Source: Acidimicrobiia bacterium (lineage in GTDB: Bacteria; Actinomycetota; Acidimicrobiia; Acidimicrobiales; Acidimicrobilacustridaceae). Taken from it: a stretch of 50,860 nucleotides of DNA. The notes under the pieces are model-generated. The model searched no databases. It was not told the DNA's origin and saw only the letters and a list, made by a program, of their open reading frames with translations. The DNA is taken from positions 1 through 50,860 of the forward strand of contig JAFIEP010000007.1 in the NCBI GenBank assembly GCA_020832495.1, written 5' to 3'. The position numbers were made by a program, and so were the translations under genes. Of this stretch, positions 181 to 44,250 are shown in pieces; position 1 is the stretch's first letter; each line of letters begins with the position of its first letter.

Positions 181-330
181 ACACAACCACCATCGGCGGT
201 GGGTTACCCAACTCCGGTGGGGCAGCGCACTGCGCGCAGTCGAATCCTGCGAGCGGAGGCCTGCAGGCCGGGCGCCAGGACCCTGCAGGTCAGGTGAATG
301 GAACCGTCGCGCCAGCGGACGACCCGCGGC

Positions 331-28089: not shown

Positions 28090-28132
28090 CTGCGCGCAGT
28101 GGGCCACCGATCTGGTGGTTGGTTGCGCGCGG
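28090..28132. repeat. 43-bp palindromic repeat, copy 3
   Basis: Arms CTGCGCGCA (28090-28098) and TGCGCGCGG (28124-28132) can pair over 9 bp with one G-T, with an inner stem CCACC/GGTGG. By eye it matches the 44-kb copies at 31 of 43 positions. It sits just upstream of the SDR promoter. Confidence 0.55.
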
Positions 28133-44008: not shown

Positions 44009-44051
44009 CTGCGCGCAGCCAGGTACCCATGCGGTGGTTCAGTGCGCGCAG
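44009..44051. repeat. 43-bp palindromic repeat, copy 1
   Basis: Arms CTGCGCGCA and TGCGCGCAG pair over 9 bp around a 25-nt loop. The copy is identical to copy 2 over at least 44 bp, and the match continues to 57 bp with one mismatch. The copies are 81 bp apart. Confidence 0.75.
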
Positions 44052-44089
44052 AGCACGCCGGCGCCCGCGCCGCCGCTGGCCGGCTGGCA

Positions 44090-44132
44090 CTGCGCGCAGC
44101 CAGGTACCCATGCGGTGGTTCAGTGCGCGCAG
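44090..44132. repeat. 43-bp palindromic repeat, copy 2
   Basis: The stem here is longest: GCACTGCGCGCA (44087-44098) pairs perfectly with TGCGCGCAGTGC (44124-44135). Confidence 0.75.
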
Positions 44133-44200
44133 TGCACGCCGGCGCACAGCACTGCCGCCGGTCGCCGCAGAGCGGCCCCCGCCCCCGGTGCCCCCAGCTG

Positions 44201-44250
44201 GTTCGTGCGTACGTTCGCGAGGCTGTGGCACGCCGAACGTACGCACGAAC
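44201..44250. promoter_or_regulatory. perfect 17-bp inverted repeat upstream of mutY
   Basis: The left arm 44201-44217 (GTTCGTGCGTACGTTCG) and right arm 44234-44250 are exact reverse complements, separated by 16 nt. The right arm ends 13 nt before the mutY -10, covering the -35. Each arm holds CGTGCGTACGTTCG, two mismatches from the SOS core. It could be an operator or a hairpin. Confidence 0.6.

Follow-up and report, generated by a model that had tools for sequence, protein, structure and literature searches.

Phased palindromic repeats and a palindrome-flanked AbiEi-type nuclease gene suggest a REPtron-like mobile element in Actinomycetota

Introduction

REP/RAYT systems (REPtrons and REPINs) consist of short palindromes that flank an enzyme gene and are also dispersed between genes, with sequences specific to a lineage. 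According to PMC3733652, CGTC-tagged REPs are palindromes without a dedicated RAYT, and head-to-tail arrangement is absent or rare in both GTAG and CGTC REPs. MITEs and insertion sequences likewise combine gene-less copies with a gene-bearing unit that has repeated ends. Two further described systems are of interest for their proteins: an EDxHD homing endonuclease acts as a dimer on a very long target of nearly 60 bp, as stated in a review (PMC3943268), and the AbiEi antitoxins of type IV toxin-antitoxin systems bind inverted repeats in their own promoters, one of them co-operatively (PMC7319586).

Here we describe a family of palindromes found in intergenic DNA of a 50,860-nucleotide stretch of an Acidimicrobiia genome (contig JAFIEP010000007.1; hereafter, the window). 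A sequence-only reading of the window had called them REP-like, and this holds for their palindromy and their place between genes, as well as for their tens of copies, their lineage-specific sequences and the enzyme gene that some of them flank. A link to RAYT is not supported, as no Y1 HUH transposase was found in the window's own genome (G000) or in that of a member of another family in the same order (G043), there is no GTAG foot, and neighbouring copies stand head-to-tail only, without head-to-head or tail-to-tail dimers. The repeats are also 43 bp or more in length, and the enzyme is predicted to be an AbiEi-type winged helix joined to a Vsr/EDxHD-like nuclease. From CGTC-tagged REPs, as portrayed in PMC3733652, they differ in greater length, in head-to-tail order, in the absence of CGTC from their conserved edges and in the candidate enzyme gene that they flank.

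By sequence comparison, the nuclease resembles EDxHD homing endonucleases of the I-Bth0305I type in its domain profile and conserved acidic and histidine residues, but it is fused to an AbiEi winged helix, and its gene is intergenic and flanked by palindromes, no intron or intein having been noticed. With AbiE systems it shares the AbiEi_4 DNA-binding domain, to which a nuclease domain has been added; the gap to the 3′ palindrome, mostly 40–120 bp, is too short for the unit to contain a toxin gene as well. Unlike MITEs and insertion sequences, the unit has palindromic ends, so that a direct repeat equals an inverted one, and it has no known transposase and no established target duplication. 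We rejected a CRISPR array on form, since the copies lie in 50 clusters of one to three diverged copies and not in long identical arrays at few loci.

Results and Discussion

The window repeats belong to a family dispersed through the genome

G000 comprises 4.46 Mb in 147 contigs and is 96.9% complete. A covariance model built from a 39-copy alignment listed 136 strand-matches in it, and rescanning the stretches around these matches yielded no fewer than 76 clear copies of 43 bp, grouped into 50 clusters (26 single copies, 22 pairs and 2 triplets). Copy counts in G000 and G043 are lower bounds, at most 150 candidates having been scored per genome. Dropped before counting were the second copy of the pair on contig C50, since that contig mirrors itself, the half-copies at C13:33387, C32:26594 and window 206, and the copies at C66:324 and C85:47683, both below the cut. 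On C50 (68370 bp), the repeat loci L003 and L004 are exact reverse complements at mirror positions, which gives the contig the appearance of a perfect inverted dimer with a unit of 34185 bp, either an assembly artefact or a hairpin-ended replicon.

The copies fall into two types, both 43 nt and ungapped, with 52 of the 76 clear copies in type A and 24 in type B. Type A reads CTGCGCGCA-N5-CCACC-N5-GGTGG-N5-TGCGCGCAG and type B reads CTGCGTGCA..GGTACC-N5-GGTACC..GCACACAG, and hybrids of the two exist. The pairs of the hairpin stem covary across the alignment. Conservation ends within about 1–4 bases outside the 43-bp core, the conserved edges being A...TC in type A and T...A(ACC) in type B, with unconserved flanks. 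The members in the window are as follows.

44009..44051, + strand: palindromic repeat, first of a head-to-tail pair, type A/B hybrid (family-model score)
44090..44132, + strand: palindromic repeat, second of the pair, with identical core, 81 bp from the first (family-model score, spacing)
28090..28132, − strand: single type-A palindromic repeat between divergent genes (family model, gene calls)
206..242, + strand: degenerate right half-copy of type A near the contig end (alignment; absent from the family-model matches)

The similarities first reported from the letters alone were reproduced: the two 44-kb copies are identical at 43/43 positions and at 56/57 across a longer stretch, and the copy at 28090–28132 agrees with them at 31/43 positions in either orientation, the family model placing it in type A on the minus strand. 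What had been taken for a diverged copy near 201–240 is indeed a remnant of the repeat, at about 206–242, but amounts to a right half-copy with small insertions. That the repeats might be chance GC-rich palindromes, or might exist in these copies alone, had been named as grounds for dismissing them. With a model built without the window copies, the three copies score 59.7, 42.8 and 42.8, and none of 30 block-shuffled windows reaches a score above 15.2, so chance palindromes are ruled out; the genome-wide count disposes of the other objection. Within a system that is itself unusual, the 44-kb repeats are solo copies of the ordinary kind. An Rfam search of the window returned one tRNA only, and an Rfam search of three repeat loci gave no match. 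A separate inverted repeat, GTTCGTGCGTACGTTCG..CGAACGTACGCACGAAC, lies at window 44201–44250, upstream of a mutY-like gene.

Our own codon-score gene caller placed 45 of the 50 clusters in intergenic DNA and 1 within a called ORF; the other 4 are at the ends of contigs. The intergenic clusters divide into 21 between same-direction genes, 13 between convergent genes and 11 between divergent genes; the caller overlooked the nuclease gene on contig C32 described below, so one of the 13 is really same-direction. In the same-direction gaps, 17/21 clusters are nearer to the upstream stop than to the downstream start. The earlier statement that all copies are intergenic and beside promoters therefore fits the window, where both clusters lie between divergent genes, but does not extend to the genome, with 13/50 clusters called convergent, 21/50 same-direction and 1/50 inside a called ORF. 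Among the genes beside copies, one repeat-containing protein family recurs (L073, L075, L077, L078, L095 and L106, on C17, C25, C29, C32, C99 and C130), its members having about 37–70% identity over the aligned parts.

Among 60 relatives, none of them a congener of G000, 56 gave no match to the family and 4 gave weak ones. The best full-length relative among named proteins for the window comes from a Microthrixaceae MAG, which makes a place in Acidimicrobiia probable for the organism. Scanning 84,980 GTDB species genomes and IMG/VR with a pattern, in sets from which the genome itself and its near relatives may be absent, found no match, nor did BLAST or pattern searches for copies in plasmids. 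G043 holds at least about 50 copies (99 strand-matches) of a similar palindrome, which has the inner architecture of the G000 repeat and different outer arms. Of 397 genomes in the order, 5 match a pattern for this common architecture, and only G000 and G043 have more than one match.

Neighbouring copies are head-to-tail and helically phased

In all 24 multi-copy clusters of G000, neighbours have the same orientation (0/24 mixed), with orientation taken from the model scores. Their 26 spacings fall into three classes, 70–72 bp (17), 81–85 bp (7) and 91–92 bp (2), and none lies between classes. The Rayleigh R for the phase is 0.84 at a best period of 10.5 bp, with p about 1e-8, triplet neighbours not being independent. 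From the three classes, we conclude that neighbouring copies lie on one face of the DNA. Within pairs, the cores agree at 1053/1118 positions and the next 25 bases after the core at 372/650. Several pairs are plain tandem duplications (those on C6, C13, C29, C53 and C103), and the pairs on C51 and C97 have identical or nearly identical cores with unlike flanks.

In G043, three neighbour pairs have a spacing of exactly 61 bp, which is 71.5 less one helical turn, and a fourth (on C71) is out of phase at 129 bp. Tandem repeats beside genes homologous to the C32 nuclease gene within the order (27 rows) cluster at 59–62 and 71–72 bp. For V-tests on these other genera, we fixed phase and period from G000. 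A set of 22 rows picked by eye gave p 2e-8; this set left out L308 (45 bp), L312 (66), L328 (122), L348 (45) and L367 (59), and the choice departed from the script's palindrome cut in that three kept rows (L341 twice, L374 3′) fall below it and five dropped rows above. For that reason, the test was redone on all 27 rows (p 7e-6) and on the 24 rows above the cut (p 7e-5), where p is weaker but still low. Outside the order, 12 unfiltered rows gave p 0.026, 7 of them fitting the classes (60, 61, 72 four times, and 83) and 5 not (48, 66, 74, 74 and 88). Of the flanks of G000 genes, 48/435 have a tandem score of at least 18, and these loci include the repeats themselves.

Palindromes flank a gene for a predicted AbiEi-type nuclease

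Contig C32 of G000 has two type-B copies at a distance of 1195 bp, with a single gene of about 309 codons between them. Judged from its sequence, this gene encodes a fusion of an AbiEi-type winged helix with a Vsr/EDxHD-like nuclease domain. Among 17 family members, AbiEi_4 matches 15, REase_MTES_1575 13 and DUF559 9 at E 0.01; in a separate search, the 7 listed MTES_1575 matches are under that family's curated cut-off and one DUF559 match is over its own. PADLOC AbiEi models matched 17/17. The nearest solved structure by profile is 3r3p, 'Mobile intron protein' (E 4e-6), which we take to be I-Bth0305I, and the second is 3hrl, an endonuclease-like protein (E 3e-4). A T, D240, E251, H258 and D267 are invariant across the 17 rows, the acidic and histidine ones being residues of catalytic type. 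MTES_1575 is named as a Vsr-type REase in PMC3710099.

We first favoured chance for the place of the C32 gene between repeats, as the other two of the three G000 paralogues have none, and this was overturned by palindrome-flanked homologues in G397 and G043. In G397, the homologue on C121 has one copy of a CCACC/GGTGG-type palindrome on either side, and 10 of 11 loci have a matching, locus-specific palindrome on each side of the gene; the eleventh, L253, has a strong flank match in inverted form only. For the G043 homologue on C59, only one side carries a copy, at a distance of about 33 bp from the 5′ end of the match. A flank match is also present in 1/3 homologues in G000 and 1/6 in G043, and 2/3 and 4/6, respectively, have no flanking pair. 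The reading that the repeats are not tied to any gene is thus right for the window, which contains no homologue of the nuclease gene, and wrong for the family, copies of which flank that gene elsewhere in G000. Type A is the commoner of the two, and we found no gene that it flanks.

The gene is present in 80 of 148 genomes of the order in a homologue survey. For a wider test we used 88 homologues chosen regardless of repeats (28 of 30 returned loci and the first 60 of 83 other listed matches; 3 of the 88 have a flank under 150 bp), and a gene passed if a direct match of score at least 18, of whatever kind, joined its 5′ and 3′ flanks. Within the order, 49/88 genes pass and 39/88 fall below, against 1/400 mismatched flank pairs and 1/157 ordinary G000 genes. 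Outside the order, with the own genome and order members excluded, 22/66 genes pass, in 16 of 26 genomes, and 44/66 fall below, against 0/400 mismatched controls. The matching flanks form a hairpin better than 40 shuffles in 45/49 cases within the order and 19/22 outside, and no good hairpin in 4/49 and 3/22. Matching palindromes therefore surround this gene in many genera, and we regard the association of gene and palindrome pair as secure. No gene passes in G441 (0/8 genes) or in G501 (0/7). In the order set, the 3′ copy begins 33–208 bp, mostly 40–120 bp, past the matched region, and after trimming, 34 of 62 flanking repeats (tested genes and three chosen genomes) are 45–51 bp long. No homologue was found in 79 named loci and none in phages; 24 plasmid records have partial matches, below 60% identity.

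We also compared similarity between proteins with similarity between their palindromes for the 62 flanked genes, which include L242, where the match is short and not palindromic. Over all pairs r is 0.247 (0/2000 permutations), and between families there is hardly any agreement (r 0.052, 140/2000 permutations), which leaves co-evolution of protein and palindrome between families unsupported. Close proteins can carry unrelated palindromes. Given the weak agreement between families, recognition may be of shape, or the palindromes may change fast.

A mobile element as the favoured explanation

Several accounts of these repeats can be weighed on the evidence above. The palindromes could be operators of an AbiEi-type autoregulator, the dispersed sites being its regulon and the nuclease domain incidental. 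AbiEi proteins do bind inverted repeats in their own promoters (PMC7319586), and helical phasing fits co-operative binding, but a matching copy is also found on the 3′ side of the gene, 13/50 clusters are called between convergent genes, one whole unit is missing from two congeners of G397 (see below), and the proteins flanking the copies in G043 and in G000 share three matches only (32–35% identity; E 9e-22, 4e-19 and 8e-5). On this last count, we rejected a conserved regulon, and operators in general seem to us an unlikely explanation. A role as bidirectional terminators or as hairpins for mRNA stability, with local tandem duplication as the means of multiplication, would explain the covarying hairpins, the 17/21 same-direction clusters nearer the upstream stop and the pairs that are tandem duplications, but it gives no reason for 10.5-bp phasing or for matched pairs around one gene family, and 11/50 clusters lie between divergent genes, so that we consider it improbable.

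Classical REPs whose RAYT (Y1 HUH) transposase has since been lost, or has escaped detection, would likewise be palindromic, intergenic, lineage-specific and present in tens of copies. The sequence-only reading had proposed a search for a RAYT-type transposase; PF01797 (Y1_Tnp) has no match in G000, at its 96.9% completeness, or in G043 (G397 has 5), neighbours are head-to-tail only, GTAG is absent from the conserved edges, and a different gene sits between the copies, all of which makes this account very improbable. Equally slight is the chance that the repeats are nucleoid or chromosome-organising sites bound by some other protein; dispersed copies with phased spacing would suit such a role, but 56/60 relatives have no match and 4 have weak ones, the architecture pattern is missing from 392/397 genomes of the order, and the repeats are associated with one gene family.

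The explanation that we favour, and think probable, is that the window repeats are gene-less, dispersed copies of the palindromes that end a mobile element, one that resembles a REPtron but has a non-RAYT enzyme. The autonomous unit would consist of a palindrome, one ORF of about 270–310 codons and a second palindrome, mostly with 40–150 bp from the coding region to each, and the ORF product would join an AbiEi-type DNA-binding winged helix to a Vsr/EDxHD-type nuclease. The protein would bind the palindrome as a dimer, and two bound dimers would co-operate if two palindromes share a face of the DNA; co-operation of this kind is our proposed reason for spacings near 60.5 + 10.5n bp. Nicking or cutting at the palindrome by the same protein would then lead to copying of the unit, or of the palindromes alone, in trans to intergenic sites, and solo copies may be mobilised in this way. 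The C32 gene, flanked by type B, would serve type A as well. Several observations speak against this account: many homologues have no detected pair, type A flanks no gene that we found, palindromes of different families hardly follow the similarity of their proteins, the C71 pair of G043 is out of phase, and precise deletion could also produce the empty sites described below. That the element is driven by this nuclease also appears probable.

We lean, with slightly less confidence, towards a phylum-wide class of elements in Actinomycetota, in which an AbiEi/EDxHD-Vsr nuclease carries its own fast-changing palindrome of ~45 bp on both sides and seeds phased solo palindromes. REPtrons would then have been invented twice, with a homing-type double-strand DNA nuclease in place of the single-strand HUH transposase, and many genes named 'AbiEi antitoxin' would be selfish elements and not antitoxins. 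The frequent flanking of this gene family by matched palindromes points to a previously undescribed type of mobile element, and our search of open-licence papers brought up no description of such a unit of palindromes and AbiEi-nuclease gene. For a class of orphan palindromic repeats, in a bacterium where no RAYT was found, the unit supplies a possible mobiliser and a possible mechanism, and it indicates that a multi-copy Actinomycetota protein family labelled as AbiEi antitoxin may be mobile. Its protein-palindrome pairs, with ready empty sites, offer material for direct biochemical tests.

One whole unit is absent from two congeners of G397

The comparison of empty sites, also proposed from the sequence alone, was carried out on the gene-bearing unit, the flanks of six G397 loci being sought in seven congeners. 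At L243, the site examined base by base, the flanks can be aligned as far as the palindromes in both G412 and G178, where 18 bp (13 bp by another scoring) separate them, versus 1077 bp in G397; no palindrome was detected at either empty site, and this whole unit is thus absent from two congeners. Shorter gaps where G397 is filled also occur at L254 (99, 161 and 211 bp in G063, G227 and G304, and 494 bp in G203), at L255 (51, 170, 317 and 376 bp in G227, G203, G178 and G412), at L246 (67 bp in G367, holding another hairpin) and at L240 (172 bp in G203, with an intermediate of about 870 bp in G178 and G227). Gaps near the filled length are found for L254 in G178, G367 and G412, for L243 in G227 and G203, and for L255 in G367. 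The empty sites could reflect either insertion in G397 or precise deletion in the congeners. Some intergenic gaps in these congeners (L414, L417, L421 and L422) contain short hairpins in which GGGGTCAGACCCC or GGGGTCTGACCCC occurs as a motif, and these may represent a further family of dispersed palindromes.
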